Assembly (NCBI RefSeq): GCF_028622115.1
Contig: NZ_CP097263.1
Span: 7,874,001 to 7,938,000 of the forward strand
From: Kutzneria chonburiensis
Lineage (GTDB): Bacteria; Actinomycetota; Actinomycetes; Mycobacteriales; Pseudonocardiaceae
Direction of reading: 5' to 3'
Length of the DNA: 64,000 bases
Shown here piece by piece: positions 48,836 to 64,000 of this stretch. The notes beneath the pieces are model-generated. The model saw nothing but the letters and a program-made list of their open reading frames with translations. It ran no database searches and was not told where the DNA came from. The position numbers and the translations under genes are program-made. Position 1 is the stretch's first letter; each line of letters opens with the position of its first letter.

Positions 48836-49270
48836 GTGTCTCTCAAGGAGAACGCCGCCGCGCAGGTCGCCGGCCTGCGCGCGTTGGCCGACCTGATCGA
48901 GTCCAACCCGGACCTGTTGGGCACCTCGACCTACATGCGCGCCCTGAACATCTGGTGGGCGCTGGACGCCAAGCAACTGGCCGACATCGCCCGCGCCGGC
49001 CTAGCGCACGGCGCGACCGTGTCCAAGACCGCCTATGGCGACACCTACAGCATCGGCCTGGACTTCGGCGCGGTCACCGCGCACGCCCTGGCCATCCGCA
49101 CCCGTGTGTGCGAACGGGTCGTGTTGGGCGTGGACACCGTCACCCGCCACGTGCCCGACCCCGACGCGCTGGCCAACGTCCCGACGGTCGAGGTGACCGA
49201 GACCGTGGAGCGGGTGGAGTGGAAGTGCGTCCCGCTGCTGGCGGAGGCCACTGTGGACGGCGCGGCGTGA
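48836..49270 (+). CDS. Early prophage protein sharing a motif with the XRE protein
   Basis: 144 residues, GTG 48836. Residues 10-35 (AQVAGLRALADLIESNPDLLGTSTYMRAL) resemble the tail of the XRE protein at 47896, so they may bind the same partner or each other. The rest is beta-rich with no known motif. Confidence 0.5.
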   Translation: MSLKENAAAQVAGLRALADLIESNPDLLGTSTYMRALNIWWALDAKQLADIARAGLAHGATVSKTAYGDTYSIGLDFGAVTAHALAIRTRVCERVVLGVDTVTRHVPDPDALANVPTVEVTETVERVEWKCVPLLAEATVDGAA

Positions 49271-49731
49271 ACATGTACCCGGACTCGATCGAGCAGGCCA
49301 TGGAAGCCGCCGAGGTGTTCACGCGGGTGGCCGATGCCCGGCTGGCCGGCCACCACGACGCCGCCGCCGACACGCTCAACGCGTTCATGCGCCACGACTG
49401 CGACACCGACAAGCACGAGTGCGAGGCCGCCGCGTGGCGGCTGTGCTACCTGGTCACCAGCGGGGCCATGGTCACCGCGGACGCCCTGCGCTGCCAGAAC
49501 CACCCCCAGCCCGGCGGGTTCTGGGGCCTGGTCCCGCTGATGGGCACCGTGGACGACGCCCCGCCGTGCGACCTGGCCGCCATGCGGGTGCTGACCGCGG
49601 AGCTGAACCACGACCACGCCGCGGTGGTCGACGTCATGAACGCGTTCTGCGCCGAGCACGGCATCGTGGGCGTGGTCGGGTTGCTGGCGGCCATGTTCGG
49701 CATCTACTCGGCAACGGTGATCGCACCGTGA
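49267..49731 (+). CDS. Early prophage protein, His/Cys-rich
   Basis: 154 residues from GTG 49267 (4-bp overlap). MYPDSIEQAMEAAEVFTRVADARLAGHHDAAADTLNAFM is helical; scattered Cys/His (HDCDTDKHECEA) might bind metal. A hydrophobic end (IVGVVGLLAAMFGIYSATVIA) may sit in the membrane. Unknown. Confidence 0.5.
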   Translation: MNMYPDSIEQAMEAAEVFTRVADARLAGHHDAAADTLNAFMRHDCDTDKHECEAAAWRLCYLVTSGAMVTADALRCQNHPQPGGFWGLVPLMGTVDDAPPCDLAAMRVLTAELNHDHAAVVDVMNAFCAEHGIVGVVGLLAAMFGIYSATVIAP

Positions 49732-49922
49732 GCGTGACAGCCGTTGTCCTGATTGGGTTTCTGGTCCTCACCGTGGCCGGTCTGTCCCTGGCCCTGTTCT
49801 TCCTCATGCGGCACGCGTCCCGGCGTGTGGACCGGATCTTGTCCGAGGAGCTGGGCCACCGCGGCGCACACGAGCGCTACGACGAGGAGCTACGCGCGTG
49901 GCGGGAGGCACCCCGTGACTGA
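49728..49922 (+). CDS. Small single-pass membrane protein
   Basis: 64 residues: helix VVLIGFLVLTVAGLSLALFFLM then a basic, charged cytosolic tail. GTG 49728 overlaps the previous stop. Unknown role in the prophage early operon. Confidence 0.55.
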   Translation: MSVTAVVLIGFLVLTVAGLSLALFFLMRHASRRVDRILSEELGHRGAHERYDEELRAWREAPRD

Positions 49923-50520
49923 TGACCCGAAGTCCTTGGCGTTGGCCATGGTGGTGCTGAAGTTCGTGGCCGACAAGATCAATCCGGCGGTGCGGGAGCT
50001 GCGCGCCAAGGCCGGCGCCGCGCTGGACGCCCGCGACCGGGTGACCGCGCTCGGCCCCGGCGGCGAAGTGTTGGGCACCATCACCAAGTCCGCGCCGAAG
50101 CCGGTGGCCGAGGTGACCGACGTCGAGGCGTTCACAGCGTGGATGGACGCCCACTGGCCCGACCGCGTCGAGCACGGCGCAACCATCGTGCCGTCCATGA
50201 TGGACACCGCCATTGCCGCGCTGCGCACCTACGCCCCGCACGTGCTGCGCCACCACCAGGCGGTGCTGCCGTGGGCGCTGGCCGAGGTGCTGCGCACGTC
50301 GGAGGCGGCCAAACAGCCGGTGGGACCGGGCGGAGAGCTGGACGTCCCCGGCGTCACCGTCACGACCGCCACTGGCACCGTGTCGACCCGCATCGACGCC
50401 GAGGCGCTGCCGGTGCTGGCCGAGCTGCTCGCCTCGGGCAAGGTCCGGCTGGACGGCACGCTGCGCCCCGAGCTGCCCGGGGTGCGGCATGACCCCGGAA
50501 CAGGCCAAGGAACTGCGTAA
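49915..50520 (+). CDS. Early prophage protein next to annealing protein
   Basis: 201 residues from GTG 49915 (8-bp overlap). No motif recognised. Helical first half (LAMVVLKFVADKINPAVRELRAKAGAAL), and a repeated PGGELDVPGVTVTTATG-type beta part. Directly before the RAD52-like gene and overlapping it by 32 bp, so it may be its partner. Confidence 0.5.
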   Translation: MTDDPKSLALAMVVLKFVADKINPAVRELRAKAGAALDARDRVTALGPGGEVLGTITKSAPKPVAEVTDVEAFTAWMDAHWPDRVEHGATIVPSMMDTAIAALRTYAPHVLRHHQAVLPWALAEVLRTSEAAKQPVGPGGELDVPGVTVTTATGTVSTRIDAEALPVLAELLASGKVRLDGTLRPELPGVRHDPGTGQGTA

Positions 50521-51178
50521 GCCGTTCCCTGCCAACGTGATCGGCAAGTTGCCGCGGGTGACGTGCCGGGCGTGCGCGCACGCGCAAGGCCGGGTCTGTG
50601 GCAACCACCGCAAGGCCCGGTGCGGGGTCTGCGCGTCGTTCATCACCTCCGCTCACATCCACCTGGATTACGTCGGCCACGCTGAGGTGACCGATCGGCT
50701 GCTGGCGGTGGATCCGGAGTGGACGTGGGAGCCGCTGGCGCTCGACGCGCACGGGCTGCCGCTGTTCGACGGCAACGGCGGGCTGTGGATCAGGTTGACC
50801 ATCGCCGGGGTGACCCGCATCGGCTACGGCGCGGCCGACGGCAAGTCCGGCCCCGACGCGGTCAAGGAGGCCATCGGCGACGGCATCCGCAACTCGGGCA
50901 TGAGGTTCGGGGTCGCCCTGGACCTGTGGGGCGCGTCCGGCGCCGGCGCCGGCGAGCCCGCCGACGAGGCGGCCGACCCGCTGGCCGACACCGACGAGGC
51001 GGCCACCCTGCGCGCCAGCATCGCCACCGAGGCCACGGCCAAGGGCTACGCCCTCGACGACGTCGAAGCGGTGTTCGCGCGCAGCATGAACACCGACATC
51101 CGGGCCGCCAGCCCCGCGGTGCTGGCGGAGTTCCTGGCCGCGGTGCGCGGCTGGAAGCCGGCCGAGGGGGCGGCGTGA
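50489..51178 (+). CDS. RAD52/Sak-like single-strand annealing protein
   Basis: 229 residues from ATG 50489. The core IHLDYVGHAEVTDRLLAVDPEWTWEPLALDAHGLPLFDGNGGLWIRLTIAGVTRIGYG...KEAIGDGIRNSGMRFGVALDLW is the phage Sak/RAD52-type annealing protein, used in recombination and replication. A zinc finger-like CRAC...CGNH...CGVC precedes it. The C-terminal part (ATLRASIATEATAKGYALDDVEAVFARS) is helical. No exonuclease partner is seen next to it. Confidence 0.75.
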   Translation: MTPEQAKELRKPFPANVIGKLPRVTCRACAHAQGRVCGNHRKARCGVCASFITSAHIHLDYVGHAEVTDRLLAVDPEWTWEPLALDAHGLPLFDGNGGLWIRLTIAGVTRIGYGAADGKSGPDAVKEAIGDGIRNSGMRFGVALDLWGASGAGAGEPADEAADPLADTDEAATLRASIATEATAKGYALDDVEAVFARSMNTDIRAASPAVLAEFLAAVRGWKPAEGAA

Positions 51179-51465
51179 TCGACTGCGCCTTCTGCGACAC
51201 CGGCGAATGCATCATGTGCGGCACCGGCATTGACCACCTGTACGACCCGGACCTGTACGACGCCGACCTCTACACACCCGAGCCGTCGCCCTGGGCCAAC
51301 CACATCTTCGAGTTGAAGGTGGACGGCGAGGACTGCGCCGACGACGCGTGCGTGTGCCTGGTGCAGCTGCTGTCGGATGCCAAGCGGGAGACCGTGGCCT
51401 ACGGGTCCGGCGACGCGATGCGCTGGAACCCGTCCATGCCCATAGCCCGGTTCGGTCCGTCATGA
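51175..51465 (+). CDS. Cysteine-rich small prophage protein
   Basis: 96 residues, GTG 51175. CAFCDTGECIMCGTG looks like a zinc-binding knuckle. Acidic middle (LYDPDLYDADLYTPEP). Unknown role. Confidence 0.5.
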   Translation: MIDCAFCDTGECIMCGTGIDHLYDPDLYDADLYTPEPSPWANHIFELKVDGEDCADDACVCLVQLLSDAKRETVAYGSGDAMRWNPSMPIARFGPS

Positions 51466-51668
51466 CCCGCTGCGTGCACGACATGGTGCCGGAGTGGTGC
51501 GCGTTCTGCCTGCGGCTGCCTGACCTTCCCGACGACAACGACCACCGGCTCGCCACAGCGAGGCCGGACCCGACCGAATGCGCGCGGTGCGGCGGCAAGA
51601 TCCAGGAGGACGACGAGTTCGGCCGCGATCCCATGGGCGACTACGTGTGCTGGCGGTGCGTCTGGTGA
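51462..51668 (+). CDS. Small zinc-ribbon prophage protein
   Basis: 68 residues, ATG 51462. CVHDMVPEWCAFC and CARCGGKIQEDDEF...CWRC are two zinc-ribbon halves. Small zinc ribbons are common in phage early operons; target unknown. Confidence 0.55.
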   Translation: MTRCVHDMVPEWCAFCLRLPDLPDDNDHRLATARPDPTECARCGGKIQEDDEFGRDPMGDYVCWRCVW

Positions 51669-52018
51669 CCCCGCTCAACCCCGTCCAGATCGAGCAGGCC
51701 ATCCGCACCTGCGCCGACCGCATCCACCGCGGCGTCGTCATCGTGTCCAACGCCGAGGCCGCCGCCCGCAAGGCACGCCGGGACTACGACCTGGCCTACG
51801 CCTTGGCCTACAAGCACAGCGACGGCCCGGCGCACGAACGCCGCTACGCCGCGGAGATCGACACGGCCGGCGAACGCGCTGCCGCCGATGACGCGGAGCT
51901 GGCGTTCCGCCACGCGGAGCGCACCGCCAAGGCGGTCGAGGCGGAACTGCGGGCGTGGCAGTCGGTCGGGGCGTCGGTGCGGATGATGTACGGCGTGGAG
52001 ACCGGGGGCACCCGGTGA
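51665..52018 (+). CDS. Helical coiled-coil prophage protein
   Basis: 117 residues, GTG 51665. Long charged helix (VSNAEAAARKARRDYDLAYALAYKH...ERAAADDAELAFRHAERTAKAVEAELRAWQ). Resembles Mu/phage recombination-associated coiled-coil proteins in pattern only. Confidence 0.5.
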   Translation: MTPLNPVQIEQAIRTCADRIHRGVVIVSNAEAAARKARRDYDLAYALAYKHSDGPAHERRYAAEIDTAGERAAADDAELAFRHAERTAKAVEAELRAWQSVGASVRMMYGVETGGTR

Positions 52019-52410
52019 CCCGCAACCCGTTGCCGCGCCGGCCTGTTCCCCGCCGACTCAAGCGCCCCCGCATGGACCCGATCCTGCGCGCCTCGATCAT
52101 CGATCGGTCCGCCTACGGGTGCGACCTGTGCCGCCGCCCGCTGAGCGAGGACCGGTGGGAATGCCACCACCGGCAGCTGCGGGCCCAGGGCGGCAAGGAC
52201 AGCCTGGCCAACCTGTTGGCCCTGCACGACCGGTGCCACCAGTGGATCCACCACCACCCCGCATGGTCCTACGGCCAAGGCTTCCTCGTCCCGTCCTACC
52301 ACGACCCGCTGCTGTGGCGGGTGTGGCGCTGGCGCGCGGTGTGGATGGCCCCGGGCGCGGAGTGGGTGCTGGCCGACCCGCACCCCGAGCAGCGGGGCGG
52401 CGCAGCGTGA
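52015..52410 (+). CDS. HNH endonuclease-like protein
   Basis: 131 residues, GTG 52015. HNH pattern: CDLCRRP...WECHHRQLRAQGGKDSLANLLALHDRCHQWIHHHP. The zinc cysteine pair and catalytic histidines are present. A very basic N-terminus (RRPVPRRLKRPRM). May nick DNA for recombination. Confidence 0.8.
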   Translation: MTRNPLPRRPVPRRLKRPRMDPILRASIIDRSAYGCDLCRRPLSEDRWECHHRQLRAQGGKDSLANLLALHDRCHQWIHHHPAWSYGQGFLVPSYHDPLLWRVWRWRAVWMAPGAEWVLADPHPEQRGGAA

Positions 52411-52706
52411 CCCTGTTCGACAAGCCGAAGCCCGAGCCCACCGAGCTGAGCACCACGTTGGCCACCGCCGCCAACCGGCTGGCGGCCGGCCAGGTCGCCA
52501 AGTGGACACCGGTCCGGGTGCAGAAGCCGCGCCCGTGCCAGGAGTGCGCGCAGGTTCAGCACGAGAAGCACGGCCAGTGCCCGCCCCGCCGCCAGGCCCG
52601 ACACCGACGCCGCCACCCCCACGGCCCGGTGCTGGAGCTGTGCGACCAGCACGCGCTGATGTGGCGCGAACGCGACGAAGCCGACGCCACCCGGCGGCCG
52701 TCGTGA
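52407..52706 (+). CDS. Small basic zinc-finger prophage protein
   Basis: 99 residues, GTG 52407. CQECAQVQHEKHGQC and ELCDQHALMW form a likely zinc finger in a basic protein. Probably DNA-binding; unknown role. Confidence 0.55.
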   Translation: MTLFDKPKPEPTELSTTLATAANRLAAGQVAKWTPVRVQKPRPCQECAQVQHEKHGQCPPRRQARHRRRHPHGPVLELCDQHALMWRERDEADATRRPS

Positions 52707-53552
52707 CCGCCGCCTACGAGTTCGACGACGTCCACCAGCAAAGGGGGCAACAGACAGTGTGGTTTCGGGTGGACGACGCGTTCCCGGACAGCCGCAAGGT
52801 TCGCCAGCTCGGCGAGCACAAGGTCGGCGCGGTCGGCGTGTGGACGCTGTGCGGCATCTGGTCGGCCCGCACGCTGTCCGATGGGTTCGTGCCGGCCGAG
52901 ATCGTCCGGGGCTACGACGAGGGCGAGTTCTACGCCGCGAAGCTGGTCAAGGTGCGGCTGTGGAAGCGCGCGCGACACGATGGTGAGCAAGGCTATGTAT
53001 TCCATGACTGGGGCGACTGGAACCCCACGAAGTCCGACGTGATGGCGGAGCGGGAACGGTGGCGGCGCACCAAGGCCCAGCAGCGTAAGGCCCACAAAGT
53101 CCCGGATGTGTCCACCGTGGACTCCTCGGTGGACTCCACCGTGGACTCCACCGAGGAGTCCAGGGTGGTGTCCAAGCGCCCCGTCCCGTCCCGTCCCGTT
53201 AAAGAGAAAACCCCCAGAACACTTCGTGTTCTGGACCCCCAAGCGCGGCACCCGCATCCCCGACGACTTCGCCGCCACCGACGCCATGATCAGCTGGGCG
53301 CGGGAGAACACGCCGCTGGTCGGCTCGGCCGAGACGGCAACCTTCGTCGACTACTGGCGGGCGGCTTCCGGTGCCAGGGCGGTGAAAGCGGACTGGACGG
53401 CGGCCTGGCGGTACTGGATGCGCAAGGCCAACGCCGAGGCCGCACGCCGCACCAACGGCCGCGGCTACACCAGCGCGACCGATGCCAACATCGCCCAGTT
53501 CCTCGGCCGCGGCGGGCCGAACCTGCGCGCCCTACCGGGTGGTGAGTCGTGA
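52703..53552 (+). CDS. Phage replication (helicase-loader-type) protein, frame break
   Basis: About 282 residues, GTG 52703. The N-terminal domain (WFRVDDAFPDSRKVRQLGEHKVGAVGVWTLCGIW) resembles phage replisome organisers. The C-terminal domain (FVFWTPKRGTRIPDDFAATDAMISWARENTP...FVDYWRAASG...DWTAAWRYWMRKA) is a known C-terminal pattern of such proteins. The two parts are in different frames. The break is near 53207-53215 (AAAACCCCC); either one surplus base there, or loss of one CCCGT unit from the four in a row at about 53179-53198, would explain it. The linker repeats VDSTVDST. Confidence 0.7.
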
Positions 53553-54046
53553 GGGAACTGGAGGTCCGGGCGCTGCTGGCCACCTGCATGGCCTACGACC
53601 ACCGCCGCCCCGGGGACGCCGACCTGGCCGCCTGGACCGACGCCGCGACCCGCGGGCGCTGGACATTCGCCGAGGCCAACGAGGCGATTCGCCAGCACTA
53701 CGCGACCACCGCGGCGTGGATCATGCCCGGCCACGTGGACGCCCGCATCCGCGCCGGCCGCCAGCAGCCGCCCCGCGTGCCGGAGCTGCCGCCCGCGGCG
53801 CCGGCCGCCCCCAGCCACGTCCGGGCCATCGTCGACCAGCTGGCCGCCCGGCTCGGCTGGCGCCGGCCGCCGCCGGTCGACGGCGTCGAGGCGCTGGCCG
53901 TGCAGTGCCCGAGCTGCCTGGCCGCGGTCGGCCGGCCGTGCACCCGGCAGGTCACCCGCGGCCACCGGCGCGGCCAGCTGGTCGCGATGAACCCGCACCC
54001 GTCCCGCCGGGAGCTGGCCGCCCGCGCCGGCCCAGCACCGCCGTAG
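53549..54046 (+). CDS. Prophage protein with C-terminal zinc finger
   Basis: 165 residues, GTG 53549. Helical part (LATCMAYDHRRPGDADLAAWTDAATRGRWTFAEANEAIRQHYA) then a zinc finger CPSCLAAVGRPCTRQ...NPHPSRRELA seen in actinophage replication-region proteins. Probably acts with the replication protein upstream. Confidence 0.65.
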   Translation: MRELEVRALLATCMAYDHRRPGDADLAAWTDAATRGRWTFAEANEAIRQHYATTAAWIMPGHVDARIRAGRQQPPRVPELPPAAPAAPSHVRAIVDQLAARLGWRRPPPVDGVEALAVQCPSCLAAVGRPCTRQVTRGHRRGQLVAMNPHPSRRELAARAGPAPP

Positions 54047-54090
54047 CGCCCGCCCACGTGCCCGTACAGCCATCGAAGGGAGCCACCCGC

Positions 54091-54324
54091 ATGGACACCA
54101 GCCGCTCGTCCAGCAGCAGCCCACCCAGCGCCGATCCGGCGACCTGGTCGGCGGCCGAGCTGGTCGCCGAGGCCGGCGCGTGTCTGGCCCGCCGGGTCCG
54201 GCACACCGCGGCCGAGACGCTGCTGCGCGGCATCGGCCTGGCCATCCTCGCCCGCTACCGCCAGCACGAGGCCACGGCCGCCGCCGTACGCGACGCCCTG
54301 GCCGACGCCAAGGCGGCCAAGTGA
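54091..54324 (+). CDS. Small helical prophage protein
   Basis: 77 residues, ATG 54091 with GAAGGGAGCC upstream. A Ser-rich start, then one helical segment (AAETLLRGIGLAILARYRQHEATAAAVRDALADAKAA). Unknown. Confidence 0.45.
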   Translation: MDTSRSSSSSPPSADPATWSAAELVAEAGACLARRVRHTAAETLLRGIGLAILARYRQHEATAAAVRDALADAKAAK

Positions 54325-54560
54325 CCACCCGGCGGCCGACCACCGGCCTGGTCTGGCTGGCCGTCACGGCGCTGGTCAGCCTCGCCTGGACGGTCAACTT
54401 CCTGGCCCCGTTCATCTGGCCGGCCTACCGGCCCGACCCCTCGATCACCAGCCTGTTCACCGTCGTGGTCGGCGGCGTCGTGGCCGTGCAGGTCGAGCGG
54501 GCCGACCGGCACCGGGCCGACGCCGGGCCGGACCACGACACCGAAGGAGATCCCCAGTGA
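54321..54560 (+). CDS. Small membrane protein, prophage
   Basis: 79 residues, GTG 54321 (4-bp overlap). Two hydrophobic helices (GLVWLAVTALVSLAWTVNFLAPF and SLFTVVVGGVVAVQV). Could be a holin-like or inner-membrane exclusion protein; not established. Confidence 0.5.
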   Translation: MTTRRPTTGLVWLAVTALVSLAWTVNFLAPFIWPAYRPDPSITSLFTVVVGGVVAVQVERADRHRADAGPDHDTEGDPQ

Positions 54561-54913
54561 CCACATCGGACCGTCCCCGCTCCTGGCTGCTGGTCTACCC
54601 GCGGGTGGCCGCCGCCGTGCTGATCATCCTGGGCGCGCTGTCGGTGGTGTCGGTGGCCGTGGTCGCCGTCCGGGAACGGCAAACCGTCCAGTGCCAGACC
54701 GGGATCAACAACGCGTTCCGCGACGCGCTGACCGAGCGCGCCGACGCCGCCGACACCGAACGCAACGCGCAACGTGCACTGTTCAAAGTGCTGTTGAACC
54801 CGTCGGCCACGCCCGCCGACCGCGCGGCGGCGTTGCACACCTACGCCAAGGGGCTGGCCGAAGCCGACGACGTGCGCGCCCGCCACCCGCTGCCCACCAA
54901 CACCTGCAACTGA
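54557..54913 (+). CDS. Single-pass membrane protein, prophage
   Basis: 118 residues, GTG 54557. One transmembrane helix (VAAAVLIILGALSVVSVAVVAV) and an outside helical domain with a cysteine pair (QCQTG, NTCN). Unknown. Confidence 0.5.
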   Translation: MTTSDRPRSWLLVYPRVAAAVLIILGALSVVSVAVVAVRERQTVQCQTGINNAFRDALTERADAADTERNAQRALFKVLLNPSATPADRAAALHTYAKGLAEADDVRARHPLPTNTCN

Positions 54914-54925
54914 CCGGGGGTGCCG

Positions 54926-55120
54926 ATGTCCGCAGTACCCCACGTGCTCGACGCGCTGGCCGTCGTCGCCCTCGTCAGCGGTGCGCTGACCTGGGTGTGG
55001 ATCGGGGATGCACGCTGGGCGGCCACCGGGCTGGGCGTGTCCGTGGTCCTGGTGGTCCTCGCCGCCACCCTGACCGCGCGGGCAGCTGCCCGCCGCCGTG
55101 ACCGGGGTGAGCGCCCGTGA
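54926..55120 (+). CDS. Small two-helix membrane protein, prophage
   Basis: 64 residues, ATG 54926 with GGGGG upstream. Hydrophobic throughout (HVLDALAVVALVSGALTWVWIG and GLGVSVVLVVLAATLTARAAARRR). Third membrane gene in a row; they may form one complex. Confidence 0.5.
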   Translation: MSAVPHVLDALAVVALVSGALTWVWIGDARWAATGLGVSVVLVVLAATLTARAAARRRDRGERP

Positions 55121-55890
55121 GGTGCGCGGTGCCCGAGTGCGGCCTGCCGTGCACCGACGCCCGGCTGTGCCGGACCTGCACGACCCGACTGGTGGCCGAG
55201 CTGCGCGCGGTGCCCGGCCTGGCCGACGACCTGGACGTGACGCTGTCGCGGCGGGACCGGCGCGGCGACCCGGTCGGCTACGTCCGCAGGAGCACGACCG
55301 GCGCGTTGCTGCCGTACAACCCGCGCGCGGCCCACGTCGCCGAAACGCTGGTCAACACCCTGTCGTCCTGGGCGCACCTGGTCGCCGAACGGCGCGGGCT
55401 GGACGTGGACGCCGACCGCACGGCCGCCGGGATGGCGCGCTGGCTGGCGGCGCACCGCGACGACGTGCGGCAGTGCGAGGACGCCGCGGCGATGTTCGAC
55501 GAGATCACCTACGCCACCGGCATAGCCCGCCGGTGCGTGGACGCGCCGGCCGAACGCGCCTACGCCGGACCCTGCGATGAGTGCGGCGCTGACCTGTACG
55601 CGCGGCTGGAGAGCCTCGATGTCCGATGTGTACGGTGCGCGACCGTCTACAACGTGAATGACCGTCGCAAATGGTTGCTGGACGCCGCCATGGACATGTG
55701 GCTGACCCCGGCACAAATGGCCCGCGCGCTGCCGGGGTTGATCTCCAGGCCGTTGACGACGGCGATGATTCAGGGATACGTCCGTAGGGGGCGGGTTGAG
55801 TCCCGAGTGGACACAGACGGTCACCGACGCGTCTCTGTTCGGGCCATCGTAGAACTGCTGCAAATCGTTACGCCCGAACACCATTTTTGA
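55117..55890 (+). CDS. Zinc-finger/winged-helix prophage regulator
   Basis: 257 residues, GTG 55117. N-terminal CAVPECGLPC...CRTC knuckle, a helical middle, CDECGADLYAR...CVRC zinc ribbon, and a C-terminal HTH (LTPAQMARALPGLISRPLTTAMIQGYVRRGRVESRVDTDGHRRVSVRAI) that looks MerR-like. Probably a late regulator. It ends the coupled early operon. Confidence 0.65.
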   Translation: MRCAVPECGLPCTDARLCRTCTTRLVAELRAVPGLADDLDVTLSRRDRRGDPVGYVRRSTTGALLPYNPRAAHVAETLVNTLSSWAHLVAERRGLDVDADRTAAGMARWLAAHRDDVRQCEDAAAMFDEITYATGIARRCVDAPAERAYAGPCDECGADLYARLESLDVRCVRCATVYNVNDRRKWLLDAAMDMWLTPAQMARALPGLISRPLTTAMIQGYVRRGRVESRVDTDGHRRVSVRAIVELLQIVTPEHHF

Positions 55891-55937
55891 CACCACCTTG
55901 ACCCGATCGAAGGAACGGGGCGCAAGCAACGTTTACT

Positions 55938-55958
55938 CCAAGCGAGTTAACTCCTTGG
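55938..55958. promoter_or_regulatory. Palindrome CCAAG(C)GAGTTAACTC(C)TTGG
   Basis: Core GAGTTAACTC is fully palindromic and the flanks extend it with one bulge. It lies 150 bp before the next gene. A related AGTTAA/TTAACT palindrome is at 59949-59963, so both may be sites for one phage regulator. Confidence 0.5.
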
Positions 55959-56088
55959 TGTGATGGGAGGTCTGTCTTGGTTGACCGAGAAAACACAGAG
56001 TGGTTGTGTCCGTCGGCATGTCTCCACAAGTCGGCAACTTTCGGACAAGTCCGGGTGTCGGGTTGCCCTACGGAAGGGAGCCCTGTCC

Positions 56089-57513
56089 GTGAGCGTTGCC
56101 ATGGCGCGTGAGGAGTTGCCGCCGCTGGGACGGAAGATCCGGCGGGCGGTGCTGTACTACCGCGGCGCCGAGCGCGCAGAACGGTCAGCGCAACCGTTGG
56201 GACTGCACATGCTGCGGAACCACTGCGCAGACCATCGCTACGCCGTAGAGAAAACGTTCATCGACTACGACGAGGGCTACACGCTCGACCGGCCCGGCCT
56301 GGCCTCCATGCAGAGCTACGCCCTGCGGACGCGGCCGGACCTCGTGCTGGTGAAGGACTGGAACCACCTGGGGAAAAGGGAGGTTGACCGTGCGCGGATC
56401 GTGCAGACGCTGGCCGCCGTCGGCGTGCAGGTGGAATCCGTTAACGCCGTTGGTGATCCCCGACTCACCTGGCCCAGCGACGCACCACGTGGGCCGATGC
56501 GCGCATCCCGCCCCGCACAACCCGTGAATGGAGGCCCTGTGCCTACCGCAACCGCCATCCCGGCGCAGAAGACCGGCACGAAGCCGACCCTGGACTACGT
56601 GCCGCTGACCGGCCCCGTGCCGGCAGGCCACCAGCGCGGCGAGACGTTCATCCATGAAGACGTCCGCATCACCCCGGAGCTGGCCCAGCAGTTCCTGGCC
56701 GTCAACGCCGAGTTCAACCGGCAGTCCAGCCCCGACCTGGAACGCCAGATGGCCGGCGAGATGGAAGCCGGCGAGTGGGACGGAAAGTCCCCGGAGGGCA
56801 TGGTCTTCGACAACCAGGGCCGCCTCATCGATGGTCAGACACGTTGCCGCGCAATCATTCTGTCCGGCCACGACGGGCTGATTGTCGACGTCCACCACAA
56901 CTACGACCCCGAGGTGTTCGCGAAGCTCAACCGGGGCCGCAAGCGCACCACCGCCCACACCCTGCATAGCGCCGGCTTCGGCAGCGCCAACCACGTGGCG
57001 GCGTGCGTGAACCTCCTGGAGCGCTACCGGGCGTGCTTCGCCACGCCGCCCGTGCCGTACACGGAGTGGCGCAAGATGAAGCTGAGCTCGCAGCGCGTCG
57101 TGGACATCGCCAAGGCCACACCCGACATCGTCACCTGCCTCCAGCTGACCGGTCCACTGGCCAACCTGGTGAAGATGACCAAGACCGTCGGCGCGGTCGG
57201 CTACTACCTGATCCGCGAGGCGGCCGGCAGAGATCAGAAGCTGTTGGACAAGGCCGAGGAGTTCCTGGCGGGGGTGCTTGACCCGGTCGACGCGGGCGCC
57301 GGCCGCACCGACCCACGCACCGCCCTACACCGCAACATCACCCGCGCCAAGCTGAACGGCGTGAAGAAGTCGCACTCCGAACAGCTCGGGCTGTGGCTGC
57401 GCGCGTGGGAGATGTTCGTCAAGGGCGAGCAGACCAACGCGCTGAGTTGGCAAGACGGCCGTTCGGACATGCCCAGGGTCTACATGCCGGGGCGGGTGAG
57501 GCGCGGTAAGTGA
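56089..57513 (+). CDS. Dead-resolvase plus ParB-like fusion protein
   Basis: 474 residues from GTG 56089 (GGAAGGGAG upstream). Residues 20-130 match the serine-recombinase catalytic fold closely (YDEGYTLDRPGLASMQSYALRTRPDLVLVKDWNHLGKREVDRARIVQTLAAVGVQVESVN), but the catalytic serine is absent (YYRGAE) and the RLGR arginines are HLGK. The second part (ITPELAQQFLAVNAEFNRQSSP...VFDNQGRLIDGQTRCRAIILSG...AKLNRGRKRTTAHTL) is a phage ParB-like domain. GTG 56539 with GGAGG before it could start the second part as its own gene; one base fewer upstream would end the first at TGA near 56526. Confidence 0.65.
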   Translation: MSVAMAREELPPLGRKIRRAVLYYRGAERAERSAQPLGLHMLRNHCADHRYAVEKTFIDYDEGYTLDRPGLASMQSYALRTRPDLVLVKDWNHLGKREVDRARIVQTLAAVGVQVESVNAVGDPRLTWPSDAPRGPMRASRPAQPVNGGPVPTATAIPAQKTGTKPTLDYVPLTGPVPAGHQRGETFIHEDVRITPELAQQFLAVNAEFNRQSSPDLERQMAGEMEAGEWDGKSPEGMVFDNQGRLIDGQTRCRAIILSGHDGLIVDVHHNYDPEVFAKLNRGRKRTTAHTLHSAGFGSANHVAACVNLLERYRACFATPPVPYTEWRKMKLSSQRVVDIAKATPDIVTCLQLTGPLANLVKMTKTVGAVGYYLIREAAGRDQKLLDKAEEFLAGVLDPVDAGAGRTDPRTALHRNITRAKLNGVKKSHSEQLGLWLRAWEMFVKGEQTNALSWQDGRSDMPRVYMPGRVRRGK

Positions 57514-57755
57514 CATCCGACGGGGGGACAGATGCACTACGCGCACAGCTGGAGGACCAGGAAGCAACCGTCGTCGCCATCATCGGATGCGACGACGTCA
57601 GTCAGGGCGCTTACCAAGCGCTGAAACGGATCCTCGACCTCTGCGACCGCGAGACGTGGGACGCGGGCGGGCTGGGCGTGATCCTCGTCCGTGAGGTCCG
57701 CGACACCATCGCCGAGGCCCTTGACGAACACGACTTCGGGGGCACATGCGAATGA
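57510..57755 (+). CDS. Small prophage protein
   Basis: 81 residues, GTG 57510. Helical and acidic (DALRAQLEDQEATVVAIIGCDDVSQGAYQALKRILDL). Unknown. Confidence 0.5.
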   Translation: MTSDGGTDALRAQLEDQEATVVAIIGCDDVSQGAYQALKRILDLCDRETWDAGGLGVILVREVRDTIAEALDEHDFGGTCE

Positions 57756-57910
57756 GCGAACAGCCGCCGCCCGCCGACACCTTCCCGTGCAACGTCGTGC
57801 TGGTGTACCCGAACGGCAACGAGCTACGCGTGGTGATCACCAGCGTGGACGAGCTGGGGTACGCCGTGACGGCGGCACTCAACCGATGGCAACGTGAGGA
57901 AAATTCATGA
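57752..57910 (+). CDS. Very small prophage protein
   Basis: 52 residues, ATG 57752 to TGA 57910. Reads MSEQPPPADTFPCNVVLVYPN then VITSVDELGYAVTAALNRWQREE. Both ends overlap neighbours by 4 bp, which supports it. Unknown role. Confidence 0.6.
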   Translation: MSEQPPPADTFPCNVVLVYPNGNELRVVITSVDELGYAVTAALNRWQREENS

Positions 57911-58068
57911 ACAGGGTGTCCCTGGCGCTCGCGGCGATCGCCGCTGGCGTCGCGCTACTGGCCCTCGGGCTGGACGCGCTGATGAACAAGCTCGACGCCG
58001 CGCGCACCGCGGCCGGCGCCGTAGACGACCCCGGCGAACCCGTCGCGGGCAACTTCGAGAGGGGGTGA
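57907..58068 (+). CDS. Very small membrane protein, prophage
   Basis: 53 residues, ATG 57907 to TGA 58068. Helix VSLALAAIAAGVALLALGLDAL near the N-terminus, acidic tail. Unknown. Confidence 0.55.
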   Translation: MNRVSLALAAIAAGVALLALGLDALMNKLDAARTAAGAVDDPGEPVAGNFERG

Positions 58069-58236
58069 TCATGGCCTTACCCGGCTAGCTGTCGCCGGCA
58101 GGTGTACCCCACGTTGCGCCCGAGCTGGGCGACGCGTACGTTGGTGGAAGCTGGCGACAGGTGACAAACCTGTTGCAACGCAACACTTTCCCCGAAATTA
58201 CCACCGCTGGCCCGTTCCCCCAGTACGGGTTCAGCC
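58069..58236. other. Structured gap before the tRNA-like element
   Basis: No gene seen. CTGTCGCC (about 58087) pairs with GGCGACAG some 60 nt on, and CAGGT-N5-ACCTG forms a second stem at about 58159-58173. Might be an RNA leader or a terminator. Confidence 0.4.
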
Positions 58237-58316
58237 CCCGGCGTAACTCAACTGGCAGAGTCGCGACGCGCAGCACGCTGCCGCCGCTGTTGCGGGTTCA
58301 AGTCCCGCCGCCGGGC
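58237..58316 (+). tRNA. tRNA-like element with a non-standard anticodon arm
   Basis: Perfect 7-bp acceptor (CCCGGCG with CGCCGGG), D-arm ACTC-N8-GAGT with GGC in the loop, and T-arm GCGGG-TTCAAGT-CCCGC with the canonical TTCRANY loop. But the 30-nt stretch between them (58262-58291) cannot fold a 5-bp stem with 7-nt loop and has no U33. GCAGC (58270-58274) could pair with GCTGT (58286-58290) across an 11-nt loop. So it could be a phage tRNA with errors, a tRNA pseudogene or a mimic. No 3' CCA is encoded. Confidence 0.45.
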
Positions 58317-58414
58317 CGAGGCTGGCACATCTGACACGCCGCGCCCATGCCCCCATGCTGGGCGGAAGTCCTCCGAGGCGACATCGGCCACCGCCGCGGA
58401 TCGTGCCGGCCCAT

Positions 58415-58828
58415 CTAGCGCTCGGTCAGCCGGAGAATCCATTCCGCCTTCTCGTTTAGTTCCAGCTGGGCCTCCAGAACAGCCCCAGTCACCGCGAAGA
58501 CCAGCTTGTCCAATGCTTCGGGATCATGCTCAAGGTGGTATGCCGTCATCGCCATGAAGACGCGCCACTCGGCCTGGAACTTCTGGTCTGAGTCGAGGTC
58601 GCCGACAAGTTCCCAAGCGGGGCGATGCATGGCCTCGTCGGTCCGTACCAGTTGAGCTAGAACGACGATGCCCGCGCGCTGCCGTAGCAGCACTGCGGAG
58701 CTGAGTGCCTCGGCGGCCTGGAGGTAGACGGCCCAGCGGGACGCGCACTCGTGCCCGATGTTCACGGGGCCGTTGATCGTGCCGGCCTGCACGACGTTGT
58801 GCGCGCTACCGTTCAGCTCGTTGGACAT
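58415..58828 (-). CDS. RHIM-like amyloid-motif protein A
   Basis: 137 residues. Near the N-terminus NVVQAGTINGPVNIG fits the V-Q-A-G-x-I-x-G-x-V pattern of RHIM-like bacterial amyloid signalling motifs. A helical domain follows (CASRWAVYLQAAEALSSAVLLRQRAGIVVLAQLVRTDEAMH...MTAYHLEHDPEALDKLVFAVTGAVL). ATG 58828 is 7-8 nt after TAGGTT, so leaderless, and reads opposite to the phage genes. It is a paralogue of the gene at 59302. Probable lysogen-expressed defence or signalling protein. Confidence 0.65.
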   Translation of the reverse strand: MSNELNGSAHNVVQAGTINGPVNIGHECASRWAVYLQAAEALSSAVLLRQRAGIVVLAQLVRTDEAMHRPAWELVGDLDSDQKFQAEWRVFMAMTAYHLEHDPEALDKLVFAVTGAVLEAQLELNEKAEWILRLTER

Positions 58829-58919
58829 GCCGGCCAACCTAGCGCGCAGGGCCGCGGACGTTAGCACAAAATACTCGGGCGGTACTCCAGAATTTTCGTG
58901 GTATGGGCGGGAGGAGTTG

Positions 58920-59297
58920 TTGCCTCGTAGCCCCTTGTCGGCCTGCACGACGCCGGGCTGCCCGAACACGTCCACCGGTGGCAAGTGCACCCGGTGCCGC
59001 GCCGAGCAGCGCCGGGCCAGCGACCAGCAGCGCGGCAGCCCGGCGAGCCGTGGCTACGGCCGGCAGCACCGGGAGCGGTTCCGTGCCGGGGTGCTGGAGC
59101 GCGACCCGGTGTGTGTGCTGTGCAACAGCGCGCCGGCCACGGTCGCCGACCACCACCCGCTGAGCAGGCGGCAGCTGGTCGACTACGGGGCCGACCCCGA
59201 CGACCCGGCCTACGGCCGCGGGCTGTGCAGCACGTGCGACAAGCGGCAGACAGCACAGCGCCAGCCCGGCGGCTGGAACCGGCCCGCTGAGACATGA
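58920..59297 (+). CDS. HNH endonuclease near terminase
   Basis: 125 residues from TTG 58920 behind GGGAGG. CTTPGCPNTSTGGKCTRC zinc knuckle, then RFRAGVLERDPVCVLCNSAPATVADHHPLSRRQL...GLCSTCDKR, a phage HNH with the CxxC pairs and HH. HNH proteins by the terminase genes help cleave concatemers at cos sites. The longer frame to 58758 is antisense to the RHIM-like gene and is not used. Confidence 0.8.
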   Translation: MPRSPLSACTTPGCPNTSTGGKCTRCRAEQRRASDQQRGSPASRGYGRQHRERFRAGVLERDPVCVLCNSAPATVADHHPLSRRQLVDYGADPDDPAYGRGLCSTCDKRQTAQRQPGGWNRPAET

Positions 59298-59301
59298 CGG
59301 C

Positions 59302-59915
59302 CTACTCGATCTCCTCGTGCAGGTCTTCGGTCAGCCCCTCCGCCTCGGCTTGATCAACGACTAGGCCGTCCATCGCGTGAGGCGTGTCGCCAGCCGCGGC
59401 CGGTGCCGGGTACCACACTTGGAAGTGGAAACCTAGCCTGTCGGGACTAGCCTCCGGGTCGTCGACGCCAACGAGGCGATACCGGCTCGACCACCGGGCG
59501 TTCTTCCTGCCTTCAAAGGACAGGATGGCTATGAGCAGGTGGCCCATAAGCTGTCGACGCCGTGGATCAGGTTCGGCCAGGGAGTACCTGATTCCTGCCT
59601 GCATGAGGTTCTCGGCAGCGTGAATCCTTTCCATCGTGGGCTCGACACTGGCGAACCATGCCCGTACGAGCTCGATGATGGCACCAAACATCTCGTTGTT
59701 CGCACTAAGCAAGATCACCAGTGTCGCCATCGCAGAGGCTTCCTGACCGGCGACCTGGAATCCAAGGCTGCGCCGGCTTCCAGGTAGACCAGCAGCGGCG
59801 AGGCGCTCTCCTGGCGCATGACCACGCCGCCGTGGATAACCCCGGCCTGGACGGTGTTGCCGCTGTGGCCGGAGACCACGTTGGTGGTGTTCGTGCCGGG
59901 CGTCTCGTTGGTCAT
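59302..59915 (-). CDS. RHIM-like amyloid-motif protein B (frame break)
   Basis: About 205 residues after correction. ATG 59915: TTNVVSGHSGNTVQAGVIHGGVVM carries the same V-Q-A-G-x-I-x-G motif as its paralogue at 58415, and the helical part (LLVYLEAGAALGFQVAGQEASAMATLVILLSAN...RIHAAENLMQAGIRYSL) aligns too. One C too few at 59764-59768 shifts the frame as written. The C-terminal extension is beta-rich and specific to this copy. Reads opposite to the phage genes. Confidence 0.6.
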
Positions 59916-59948
59916 GCCGGCAGTGTGCACGATGGCAGCGGGTCTGAA

Positions 59949-59963
59949 TTAACTGTGAGTTAA
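59949..59963. promoter_or_regulatory. Palindrome TTAACT-GTG-AGTTAA
   Basis: Perfect 6-bp arms upstream of the amyloid-motif gene, sharing AGTTAA/TTAACT with the palindrome at 55938. Likely operator. A GGGGTG...CACCCC stem follows at about 59966-60000. Confidence 0.5.
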
Positions 59964-60203
59964 GCGGGGTGACCTGGCCGAGCCTCCACCAGGCCACCCC
60001 TGTGCCCACCGGGGAAGTGAGGCGGTTGATTCGCCTGCGTATACCGGTTGCTTGGAGGTATCCCCGCTGTAGGCGTGGTCAGGACCCTAGCCCTGCACCT
60101 TGTCAAGAGGTGAGGGGGTCGAAATCGCTGGCTTCAAGATCACTTGACCGCCGGGGTAGTCACGCGCACAGCGTGACAAGTCTGACGAACTGGGTAGTTG
60201 ATC

Positions 60204-61598
60204 ATGCCGCTGCAGAAGGCATTTCCGCTGGTCAAGCAGTCTTACGAGCTGGTCGGTGTTGATCGACTGACCCCGCACCCGGACAACCCCCGCCGCGGGG
60301 ACGTCGGCGTCCTGGTCGACAGCATCGAGGCCAACGGCTTCTACGGCGCCGTGGTGGCCCAGCTGTCCACCGGCTACGTCCTGGCCGGCAACCACCGGCT
60401 GATGGCCGCCCGTGAACACGGGCTGACCGTGCTGCCGGTGGTGTGGGTCGACGTGGACGACGAGGCGGCGCTGCGCATCCTGTTGGTGGACAACCGCTCC
60501 AACGACCTGGCCGACTACGACCAGGACGCGCTGGCGGTGCTGCTGGCCGGGTTGGAGGACTTGGCCGGCACCGGCTACGCCGAGCACGAGCTGGCCGCGC
60601 TGCTGGAGCCGTCTGAACCGCCTGACAGCGCGCCGGACGACGTCCCGCGGCAGTCGCTGGCCGAGCGCTTCGGCGTGCCGCCCTTCACGCTGCTGGACGC
60701 CCGCCGGGGCTACTGGCGCGACCGTAAAGCGGCCTGGCTGTCGCTGGGCCTGCGGTCGGAGCTGGGCCGGTCCGGCGGGCTGACGGGATCGTTCGACGAC
60801 GCCGCGCGGGCCAAGGCCGCCTACAACGGGCAGGCCCCGACCGGCGCGAGCTGGGAGGCCGGGACGTCCATCTTCGACCCGGTGCTGGCCGAGCTGCTGC
60901 TGCGCTGGTACACCGCGCCGGGCACGGCCGTGCTGGACCCGTTCGCCGGGGGCGCGGTCCGCGGCTTGGTCGCCGCCCGGCTGGGCCGCCGGTACACCGG
61001 CGTGGAGCTGCGCGCCGAACAGGTCGAGGCCAACGGGCAGGCCGCGGTGGACTGGATGGGCCGCGGGCTGCTGACCGCTGCGGCACCACAGTGGATCGTC
61101 GGCGACGCCCGCGACATCCGGGCGTTGGTGCCGAACACCGCATCCGGGACGTACGGGATGTTGTTCACGTGCCCGCCGTACTTCGACCTGGAGCGCTACA
61201 GCGACGACCCGGCCGACCTGTCGACCGCCGCCAGCTATGAGCAGTTCCTGGACGGCTACACCGACGCCCTGGCCGCCGCCACCGACCGGATGACGGACAA
61301 CGCCTTCGCCGCCATCGTCACCGGCGCGGTCCGCGACCGCCACGGCTACGTCCTGGACCTGCCGGCCGACACGAGCCGCATCATGGCCGGCCTGGGCTGG
61401 CGGCTCTACCAGGACGCCGTCCTGGCCACCCCGACCGGCAGCGCCGGCCTGCGCGCGGCCAGCGCGTTCCTGAAGTCGCGGAAGCTGGCGCGGGTTCACC
61501 AGATGGTCGCCGTGTACCACCGGGGCGACATCGGCGCGGTGCGCAGCTGGCCGGCGCCGGAGGTCGGCGAGGTGCTGGAGCTGGACGGGGAGGACTAG
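60204..61598 (+). CDS. ParB-domain DNA methyltransferase
   Basis: 464 residues from ATG 60204. N-terminal ParB/Srx domain (LTPHPDNPRRGDVGVLVDSIEANGFYGAVVAQLSTGYVLAGNHRLMAAREHG). C-terminal methyltransferase: motif I DPFAGGAVRG, motif IV TCPPYFDLERYSDD. Probably N6-adenine or N4-cytosine specific. Such phage enzymes protect DNA from host restriction or mark packaging sites. It is first of the packaging group; 288 bp of gap before it may hold the cos site. Confidence 0.88.
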   Translation: MPLQKAFPLVKQSYELVGVDRLTPHPDNPRRGDVGVLVDSIEANGFYGAVVAQLSTGYVLAGNHRLMAAREHGLTVLPVVWVDVDDEAALRILLVDNRSNDLADYDQDALAVLLAGLEDLAGTGYAEHELAALLEPSEPPDSAPDDVPRQSLAERFGVPPFTLLDARRGYWRDRKAAWLSLGLRSELGRSGGLTGSFDDAARAKAAYNGQAPTGASWEAGTSIFDPVLAELLLRWYTAPGTAVLDPFAGGAVRGLVAARLGRRYTGVELRAEQVEANGQAAVDWMGRGLLTAAAPQWIVGDARDIRALVPNTASGTYGMLFTCPPYFDLERYSDDPADLSTAASYEQFLDGYTDALAAATDRMTDNAFAAIVTGAVRDRHGYVLDLPADTSRIMAGLGWRLYQDAVLATPTGSAGLRAASAFLKSRKLARVHQMVAVYHRGDIGAVRSWPAPEVGEVLELDGED

Positions 61599-61601
61599 GC
61601 G

Positions 61602-62060
61602 ATGTACCGGGGTGGACCCGCGCCGAAGCCCACGGCGCTGCGGCTGATCGAGGGCGACCGGGCCGACCGGATCAACCCGGCCGAGCCGATCCCGCGCGGG
61701 CTGCCGCCGGTGTGCCCGGACGGGGTGTCGGACGACGTGCGGGCCATCTGGGACTACACGGTGGCCGAGCTGGACGCGATGGGCACCGCCGCCGCGGCCG
61801 ACCGCGACGCCCTGTTGTGCTACTGCGAAGCCGTGGTCAGCCATCGGCGGGCTTCGGCGGTGCTGGCCAACAGCGCGGTGTTGGTCAAGGGCATCCACGG
61901 CGGCATGGTCCGCAATCCCGCGTTGCAGATTCAGCGCGACAGCGCGGGCATCATCCGTGCGTTCGCGCAGGAGTTCGGCCTGACACCGAGTGCGCGCACG
62001 CGCATCGAGGTCAAGGGCGCAAGCGATGACGGAAACCCCTTCGCAGGCACGGGCACCTGA
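61602..62060 (+). CDS. Terminase small subunit, P27 family
   Basis: 152 residues, ATG 61602. Family pattern KPTALRLIEGDRADRINPAEPIPRGLPPVCPDGVSDDVRAIWDYTVAELDAMG and GLTPSARTRIEVKG. Binds phage DNA to start packaging. Overlaps the large subunit by 35 bp. Confidence 0.9.
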   Translation: MYRGGPAPKPTALRLIEGDRADRINPAEPIPRGLPPVCPDGVSDDVRAIWDYTVAELDAMGTAAAADRDALLCYCEAVVSHRRASAVLANSAVLVKGIHGGMVRNPALQIQRDSAGIIRAFAQEFGLTPSARTRIEVKGASDDGNPFAGTGT

Positions 62061-63735
62061 CCTCCAGCTGGCCCCGGAAGTCTTGTGGTACCTGGAATCG
62101 CGCGGCATCCCGCTGCCCGAGTGCCCGCCGAAGCTGGCGACGCCGTCGCCGGGCGAGGTCGACGGGGCGCGGTTCGACGCGTCCCGTGTGGACAAGGTGC
62201 TGAAGGTCTTCTCGCTGCTGCGCCACACACAAGGCAAGTGGGCGGGCCGGCCGCTGAAGCCCGACCCGTGGCAAGTCGCCTACATCTTGTGCCCGGTGTT
62301 CGGGTGGGTCCGGCGCAACGATGACGGCGACTGGGTGCGGGTGGTCCGCAGGCTCTACGTGGACATCCCGCGCAAGAACGGGAAGACCACGACGGCGGGC
62401 GGCATCGCCACCTACCTGACCGCGGCCGATGACGAGGCCGGCGCGCAGGTCTACGCGGTGGCCGCCGGGCGCGACCAGGCCCGGTTCTGCTTCGACCCGG
62501 TCAAGGCGATGGCGGAGAAGAGCCCCGCGTTGTCCCGGTTCGTCAAGACGCGCCAGTCCCGCATCGTCCACGAGCCGTCCGGCAGCTACTTCGCCGTGGT
62601 GTCCCGCGTCGCCGAGCTGTTGCACGGCGCGAACATCCACGGCGCAGTGGTCGACGAGCTTCACGTGCACGCGACGCCGGACCTGGTGGAGACGGTGGAG
62701 ACCGGCACCGGGTCGCGCACGCAGCCGCTGGTCCTGATCATCACCACCGCCGACGACGGCCGGCAGCACACCATCTACGCCCGGCGCCGGGACTACGTCG
62801 AACAGGTCGCCCGCCGCGCGCTGACCGACGACAGCCTGTACGGCGTCGTGTGGGCGGCCGACGAGCAAGACGACCCGTTCGACGAGGCGACGTGGCGCAA
62901 GGCAAACCCGGGCTACGGGGTCAGCCCGTCGCGGGAGTACCTGCGGCAGGCCGCCAACGAGGCGAAGCAGTCCCCGGCGGACCTCGCGAAGTTCCTGCGC
63001 CTGCACTTGGGTTTGCGCACGAAGCAGGAGACGCGGTTCATTGACATGGCCGCCTGGGACGCCAACGCGTCCCTGGTGGACACCGCGGCGCTGGTCGGCA
63101 AGACCTGTTACGGCGGCCTGGACCTGGCCGCCACGTCGGACCTGACGGCGCTGTGCTGGGTGTTCCCCGACGGCACCGGCGGCCATGACGCGCTGTGGCG
63201 GCTGTGGGTGCCCGAGGCGGCGCTGCCGGCGCTGAGCCGCCGCACCCACGGCCAGGCCGACGTGTGGGCCCGCCAGGGGCTGCTGACGGTCACGCCGGGC
63301 GACGTCGCCGACTACGACTACATCCGGGCCGCGATCAACGCCGACCGGGAGCGCTACGTGGTCGAGGCCATCGCCTACGACCCGTGGAACGCCACGCAGC
63401 TGGTCACCGACCTGGTCGGCGACGACGCGCCGATGGTCAAGATGCGGCAGGGCTTCGCCTCGATGTCCGCCCCGTGCAAGGAGTTCCAGCGGGTCGTGTT
63501 GGACGGGTCGGCCGACCGGCCGCGGTTCCGGCACGGCGGCAACGGCGCGATCCGCTGGCAGGTGGACAACCTGGGCGTGGAGATGGACGCGGCCGGCAAC
63601 GTCAAGCCCAGCAAGAAAACCTCAGGCGACAAGATCGACGGCGTGGTTGCCGCGATCATGGCGTTGGACCAGGCCACCCGTGCCGCTGGTGACGCGCACA
63701 GCATGTACGACAGCGCAGATTTGCTTGTCCTGTAA
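62026..63735 (+). CDS. Terminase large subunit
   Basis: 569 residues, ATG 62026. Packaging motor ATPase: Walker A PRKNGKTT (115-122), Walker B AVVDELH with Asp210-Glu211, and motif III ITTADDG. The nuclease part has the acidic residues GGLDLAATSDLTALCW, EAIAYDPWNATQLV and GDKIDGVVA. Complete. Confidence 0.95.
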   Translation: MTETPSQARAPDLQLAPEVLWYLESRGIPLPECPPKLATPSPGEVDGARFDASRVDKVLKVFSLLRHTQGKWAGRPLKPDPWQVAYILCPVFGWVRRNDDGDWVRVVRRLYVDIPRKNGKTTTAGGIATYLTAADDEAGAQVYAVAAGRDQARFCFDPVKAMAEKSPALSRFVKTRQSRIVHEPSGSYFAVVSRVAELLHGANIHGAVVDELHVHATPDLVETVETGTGSRTQPLVLIITTADDGRQHTIYARRRDYVEQVARRALTDDSLYGVVWAADEQDDPFDEATWRKANPGYGVSPSREYLRQAANEAKQSPADLAKFLRLHLGLRTKQETRFIDMAAWDANASLVDTAALVGKTCYGGLDLAATSDLTALCWVFPDGTGGHDALWRLWVPEAALPALSRRTHGQADVWARQGLLTVTPGDVADYDYIRAAINADRERYVVEAIAYDPWNATQLVTDLVGDDAPMVKMRQGFASMSAPCKEFQRVVLDGSADRPRFRHGGNGAIRWQVDNLGVEMDAAGNVKPSKKTSGDKIDGVVAAIMALDQATRAAGDAHSMYDSADLLVL

Positions 63736-63759
63736 GGAAAACAGAACAGGGGTTGTGCC

Positions 63760-63981
63760 GTGTGGTCACAGCGGGATCGGCTCATGCGGGCCGCCCTGCG
63801 CGCGCGGTTCCTGGTCTTCCTGCGCGACGGCGGCAGCTTCAGCGGCCTGTTGGTCGACGTGGACGACCGCACGGCGATGTTCACCGACGTGAAGTTGGTG
63901 CAGGCACACGGAACCCTGCCGGCCGACGGCACGGTGTTCGTGGACCGCGCCCGCATCGCCTACCTCCAGGACGGTGGCTGA
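63760..63981 (+). CDS. Small post-terminase protein
   Basis: 73 residues, GTG 63760. Reads RFLVFLRDGGSFSGLLVDVDDRTAMFTDVKLV, like a small beta-barrel. Its stop overlaps the next ATG. Unknown. Confidence 0.6.
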   Translation: MWSQRDRLMRAALRARFLVFLRDGGSFSGLLVDVDDRTAMFTDVKLVQAHGTLPADGTVFVDRARIAYLQDGG

Positions 63982-64000
63982 TGCGACTGTCCAACGGCGA
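63981..64000 (+). CDS. Start of next prophage gene (partial)
   Basis: ATG 63981, reads MRLSNG to the window edge. By position this is where the portal gene would be, but the visible part is too short to tell. Confidence 0.35.

Follow-up and report, generated by a model that had tools for sequence, protein, structure and literature searches.

A tRNA-like element without a usable anticodon arm in a Kutzneria chonburiensis prophage, and arm-less tRNA bodies in other phages

The prophage and its tRNA-like element

The window, that is, the whole 64,000-nt stretch of Kutzneria chonburiensis DNA analyzed here, contains part of a prophage of about 46 kb that begins near 44.0 kb and continues past the end of the window, to about 89.9 kb (~89910) in window coordinates. 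It encloses an 80-nt tRNA-like element on the + strand (58237–58316), located about 14 kb from the left and about 32 kb from the right prophage border. The left border lies at 43943–44013, and the empty site is represented in two genomes of the same genus: the flanks meet at adjacent bases in G001 and are two bases apart in G003. From its left end the prophage carries genes for a serine integrase, replication, terminase, portal, major head, tape measure and endolysin, of which integrase, terminase, portal, major head and tape measure were identified by PHROGs profiles. The terminase gene starts 3.7 kb downstream of the element, and relatives of the terminase were found in Amycolatopsis and Pseudonocardiaceae. 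The left border also holds a dispersed repeat of about 60 bp (43954–44014), to which most of the matches in the own genome (81) and in G003 (87) are due. Elsewhere in the window, two TPP riboswitches were detected, at 4800–4909 (+; 68.5 bits) and 11389–11516 (-; 57.6 bits).

The element stands at the 3' end of a + strand run of small phage genes (57510–57755, 57746–57910 and 57907–58068), and the gene that follows it reads in the opposite direction. A scan for consensus promoters and terminators gave neither, nor any promoter-like site. Two oppositely read prophage frames, 58415–58990 (-) and 59302–60009 (-), matched no Pfam family; a VQAGxIxG-type motif occurs near the N-terminus of the first and of a 71-aa frame (59715–59930) that overlaps the second. 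The features of the locus are as follows.

44014–64000, + strand: part of the prophage inside the window (empty sites of G001 and G003; PHROGs matches)
58237–58243, + strand: acceptor stem, 5' strand CCCGGCG, pairing 7/7 with 58309–58315
58246–58261, + strand: D arm, stem ACTC/GAGT and loop AACTGGCA, 4/4 pairs
58263–58287, + strand: 25-nt segment replacing the anticodon arm, predicted minimum-energy fold GCG.CG.GCAG(CACG)CUGCCG.CGC
58288–58291, + strand: short variable region TGTT, from the sequence
58292–58308, + strand: T arm GCGGG-TTCAAGT-CCCGC, 5/5 pairs
58309–58316, + strand: acceptor 3' strand CGCCGGG and position 73 (C), from the sequence
61990–63735, + strand: terminase large subunit of the prophage (phrog_9, E 1.6e-153)

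Read directly, the element has the layout CCCGGCG-TA-ACTC-AACTGGCA-GAGT-C-[25 nt]-TGTT-GCGGG-TTCAAGT-CCCGC-CGCCGGG-C. An earlier note on this DNA had described near-perfect acceptor, D- and T-arms, and indeed all 16 body pairs are intact (acceptor 7/7, D stem 4/4, T stem 5/5). The elbow and consensus bases of tRNAs are present as well (T8, A14, G18G19, A21, G53, TTCAA and C61), and no CCA is encoded at the 3' end. The detector used for such tRNA bodies returned 0 matches in 4.79 Mb of Markov-shuffled sequence, so the body is more than a chance arrangement. The 25 nt at 58263–58287 occupy the place of a normal 17-nt anticodon arm, an excess of 8 nt.

The replaced arm and the relation to host tRNA-Thr(UGU)

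The 25-nt segment did not form a 5-bp anticodon stem with a 7-nt loop and U33, which, together with the intact body and the position in the prophage interior, upheld the description of the element as a phage tRNA-like element without a normal anticodon arm. Its minimum-energy fold was a 9-bp bulged hairpin with a 4-nt loop, no more stable than shuffles of the same GC-rich letters (p 0.31–0.46). Folding of the whole element compared with shuffles gave z -1.17, and a longer leader plus element did no better (z -0.72). The statement that the 30-nt middle is unable to form a standard arm withstood systematic editing: 0 of 211 single and 0 of 21,480 double edits produced a complete 5-bp arm that has U33 and starts immediately behind position 26. 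A loose (4/5) arm of type-II length resulted from 1 of 211 single edits, which carries no weight since 181 of 300 shuffled middles match it. Single deletions of 1–13 nt never restored a type-I arm. A normal tRNA recoverable by correcting one or two bases, the test set by the earlier note, was rejected on these results, and an intron within the arm was discarded as improbable with only about 8 extra nucleotides to house it.

The scan with tRNA finders and covariance models gave a divided answer. ARAGORN called a tRNA-Leu(CAG) at 58237–58317, a formal assignment in which the arm has a 4/5 stem with an A.C mismatch, no U33 and 2 unpaired nucleotides ahead of it, and the variable region is 11 nt long and unpaired; since this 4/5 arm is formally possible, strict sorting of arms placed the element in an intermediate bin. 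Rfam at its gathering threshold reported no tRNA in the window. The element was absent from the 57 Rfam tRNA matches in its own genome, being below the RF00005 gathering cut-off, and at a relaxed E-value the only tRNA model to match it was tRNA-Sec (18.6 bits, threshold 47). Apart from the ARAGORN call, then, a working tRNA such as this tRNA-Leu(CAG) is opposed by the missing U33, the stem mismatch, the unpaired variable region and the sub-threshold Rfam score. Moreover, tRNA-Leu has A at position 73, where the element has C, and the body resembles tRNA-Thr rather than tRNA-Leu. That the element decodes is thus very improbable.

The body closest to the element is the host tRNA-Thr(UGU), whose 3' half is its only other match in the genome. 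Positions 58289–58314 (26 nt) are identical to the host gene (26/26), and over 51 comparable body positions there are 6 differences: at 1 and 72 and at 10 and 25, which make two doubly compensated pairs, at one D-loop base and at position 73. Pair 10–25, for instance, is A10-U25 in the element and G10-C25 in the host tRNA. When six changes were placed at random (200,000 trials), all 16 pairs were kept in 1.4% of trials and two compensated pairs arose in 0.04%. The rarity of both outcomes argues that selection has acted on this fold since the split from host tRNA-Thr(UGU); part or all of the compensatory changes may date from an ancestor that was still decoding. Because D arms of the A10-U25 type are common in normal viral tRNAs, including tRNA-Thr(UGU), the ancestor was likely a phage tRNA. 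ThrRS needs G1-C72 in bacterial tRNA-Thr; judging from its first acceptor pair, C1-G72, the element would therefore not be a good threonine acceptor.

Identity to the 3' half of a host tRNA is also what an attachment-site fragment left by integration would show. Such fragments are often called as tRNAs, and partial tRNA genes at attR (PMC9897764) resemble the element in being tRNA-like, non-canonical and sharing the 3' half with a host tRNA. They differ from it in that the element is internal to the prophage, far from either border, and has a full, compensated tRNA 5' half. Furthermore, the prophage has a serine integrase and defined empty sites, and the identity to the host tRNA ends before positions 72 and 73, both of which are different. 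The prophage borders refute an attachment-site origin, barring use of the site by an older element, and such an origin is scarcely credible. Equally rejected was a role in tRNA-dependent lysogeny. The tRNAs described in PMC10865867 are likewise encoded by temperate actinobacterial phages, but they are functional tRNAs that stand in for a host tRNA which a tyrosine integrase has disrupted, whereas this prophage has a serine integrase and the host tRNA-Thr is intact.

Searches for homologues covered several sets. Of 297 family genomes including the own one, none of the 296 others contained the exact arm; the same-genus search matched only T arms of tRNA-Thr; neither phages nor plasmids gave a match to the element at useful coverage; and viral contigs with the T arm of the element amounted to 2 matches, both of normal spacing. 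The comparison with the tRNAs of related phages, proposed earlier, yielded no homologue among 117 terminase-related loci (ARAGORN was run on 47 of the 117), the arm-less bodies described below being from other phages. The 117 loci contained few bodies, namely normal tRNAs, one with a long insert (L142) and two with a 5-nt loop (L077 and L078), and tRNAs are thus sporadic in this prophage group. The L142 element (1522–1623) is 102 nt long, has its insert in the anticodon arm and precedes, by about 1.7 kb, a terminase gene that is a relative of the one in this prophage. In the Streptomyces prophages L077 (9122–9191) and L078 (8850–8919), some 1 kb ahead of the terminase, a tRNA-Gly-like gene has a second tRNA-like gene beside it. 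The arm of this second gene is CCCCC/GGGGG, and its 5-nt loop is not the same in both prophages.

These results bear on a close rival explanation, already raised in the earlier note, according to which the element is simply a phage tRNA in decay. A tRNA-Thr-like moron gene, its anticodon arm scrambled by one or a few insertion or recombination events so recent that the body is not yet eroded, would then have no present function. The lack of homologues, the shuffled-like arm, the low Rfam score and the sporadic occurrence of tRNAs in this prophage group are in its favour. Decay has to account, however, for the survival of 16/16 body pairs, for stem differences from host tRNA-Thr that are all compensated, and for the need of more than one event, given that neither one or two edits nor a single deletion of 1–13 nt restores a type-I arm. 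We consider decay a serious possibility that stays somewhat short of an even chance.

Arm-less tRNA bodies in viral and bacterial DNA

Viral contigs were scanned for the D-arm and T-arm consensus at enlarged spacing, which gave at least 119 matches. Among the matches listed, 92 were kept as distinct bodies (acceptor at least 6/7, T stem at least 4/5), 61 of them without an ordinary anticodon loop and 31 with one. The latter, again among the matches listed, were mostly tRNA-Ile(UAU) with long (type II) variable arms, found in L349, L351, L354, L375, L381, L385, L389, L392, L396, L404, L412, L429, L448 and others; a type II variable arm is unusual for an isoleucine tRNA. In loci not chosen by their arm, 4 of 468 distinct bodies were without any 7-nt loop and 27 were intermediate. 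Enlarged-spacing tRNA bodies are nearly absent from bacterial genomes: the family genomes gave 2 of 249, this element and one other whose arm is identical to that of an IMG/VR prophage contig (L369), and 394 genomes of the class gave only this element and one match that is no tRNA body. The spacing pattern reached about 6 tRNA genes in the 31 loci of the own genome, from which we estimate that several thousand cellular tRNA genes were sampled.

Two families of arm-less bodies could be aligned. Family A was read immediately 3' of a terminase gene in L445/L484/L485, L455 and L487/L488, with terminases 66–100% identical in protein sequence where measured; a motif scan added L493 and L494, the terminase context applying to the loci whose genes were read. 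Two 5-bp stems, separated by a 4-nt bulge (AAYA or TATA) and capped by a GACG tetraloop, make up its arm. Over 5 distinct sequences, pairing held in 49 of 50 arm cells and in all 35 acceptor cells, and double changes occurred at 5 of 10 arm pairs and 5 of 7 acceptor pairs. Family B, represented by 8 distinct sequences in 10 of 27 loci, lies behind a gene of about 200 aa and has an arm with a 5- to 7-bp stem and a 6- to 22-nt loop; 56/56 acceptor cells (double changes in 5/7 pairs) and 52/53 arm-stem cells were paired. The positions of the elements are as follows.

Family A, L445: 3575–3658
Family A, L455: 3496–3579 (-)
Family A, L491: 6200–6283
Family A, L493: 13707–13790 (-)
Family A, L494: 2720–2803
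Family B, L496–L504 and L521: about 2620–2710; L504 at 1691–1769

Two unrelated phage lineages thus conserve arm-less tRNA bodies with covarying stems. No close cultured relatives were found for the phages of either family, and two other contigs gave no useful phage match. The remaining 17 loci of the family-B type comprise L508, L513, L517 with a weak body only, and 14 with nothing. In the distant relative L513 this place is taken by a normal tRNA-Thr(UGU) (2527–2599). A decoding tRNA can thus cease to decode and still have its body retained. Near the family-B element of L504, a group I intron match (3483–3664, 53.5 bits) is cut off by the end of the locus.

Part of the arm-less viral group is decaying, since acceptors are damaged more often than in normal bodies: 17 of 49 arm-less elements compared with 5 of 93 normal ones among the matches listed, in a count that took all 103 distinct matches listed, low acceptors included. 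This adds to the case for decay of the element at 58237–58316, as does the 12-nt tandem duplication in the arm of the family-B relative L508 (2619–2701), evidence that such events occur. Hairpin arms were, on the other hand, almost as frequent in arm-less elements as in normal ones: among the matches listed, p<=0.05 was reached in 19 of 58 arm-less elements (mean z -1.35) and 31 of 80 normal ones (mean z -1.57). The Rfam tRNA threshold was passed by the elements of 14 of the 15 arm-less loci fetched, and this element fails it; with scores above threshold, arm-less bodies may pass as ordinary tRNAs.

Gene context bears on another explanation, namely that the element is a tRNA-shaped processing or 3'-end signal in a phage transcript, cut by RNase P and RNase Z as in tRNA punctuation, with an arm that drifts freely. 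The element does end a + strand gene run, with the next gene reading the other way, family A stands directly behind terminase genes, and two arm-less elements lie directly behind major head genes. Yet arm-less elements do not lie nearer to an upstream gene of the same direction than solitary normal tRNAs do (13/46 and 16/55, respectively, within 60 nt), and the conserved bulge and tetraloop of family A would be unneeded in a mere processing site. A processing signal, the chief alternative to the role discussed below, is rated improbable.

Possible use of a tRNA-shaped RNA

The reading we tentatively prefer, which approaches an even chance, is that the element is a probable one-off phage RNA gene that goes back to a tRNA-Thr(UGU)-like tRNA, whose decoding arm was lost and whose body was kept under selection. 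The intact arms, the location in the prophage interior, the lack of a usable anticodon arm and the pair-preserving differences from host tRNA-Thr provide its basis. Conservation with covarying stems was found for this kind of RNA in other phages, not for this copy, and applies to it by analogy. With families A and B the element shares intact arms and a replaced anticodon arm in phage DNA; covarying homologues and an arm fold better than chance were not found for it, and the lack of a homologue, the shuffle-like arm and the sub-threshold Rfam score speak against a kept RNA. The earlier suggestion of a tRNA mimic is hence supported in kind, as other phages keep covarying bodies without an anticodon loop, though not by any homologue of this copy.

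If the body is kept, a tRNA-Thr(UGU)-like phage tRNA would have lost its decoding arm and retained the rest under selection, and host RNase P and 3'-end enzymes would process the transcript into a stable, non-decoding tRNA-shaped RNA. An RNA without an anticodon cannot decode, and the tRNA shape is what remains. In the weakest step of the scheme, which is rather unlikely, the element would occupy host factors that recognize the tRNA elbow or acceptor end; candidates would be processing or modification enzymes, or toxins and defence effectors that target the acceptor end. Recognition of the elbow and acceptor end is described for RNase P, RNase Z and other enzymes (PMC4810234). The other role proposed earlier, a decoy for host anticodon nucleases, appears unlikely, since such nucleases cut in the very loop that the element lacks. 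The phage tRNAs that escape anticodon nucleases through anticodon-loop mutations (PMC10264068) are likewise phage-encoded, with the change confined to the anticodon arm and the body intact; they keep a 7-nt loop and decode, whereas the loop of the element is gone.

Cellular tRNA mimics such as tmRNA and YrlA or Y-RNA-like RNA have acceptor/T-arm or elbow features without tRNA decoding. The element showed no sequence relation to YrlA, its Rfam YrlA match being 13.9 bits (threshold 69). No description of phage tRNA bodies with replaced anticodon arms was found in the open-access literature and, as far as that literature shows, this class has not been described previously. The arm-less phage group is a more interesting result than the single element. 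It is possible, if somewhat doubtful, that phages of many kinds keep non-decoding tRNA-shaped RNAs, with the body and in some lineages a specific new arm under selection, that the element, with its origin in a tRNA-Thr(UGU)-like gene, represents them in an actinobacterial prophage, and that the class engages host factors reading tRNA shape instead of the anticodon.

For phage annotation, "odd tRNA" calls should be checked for covariation before being dismissed as annotation noise or pseudogenes. Codon supply and escape from anticodon nucleases are the usual explanations for why phages carry tRNAs, and both need a working anticodon. Conserved phage bodies without an anticodon are explained by neither, which suggests a use of the tRNA shape itself, whether as a decoy, as a processing signal or otherwise, and families A and B offer concrete, alignable RNAs with which such a use may be tested.
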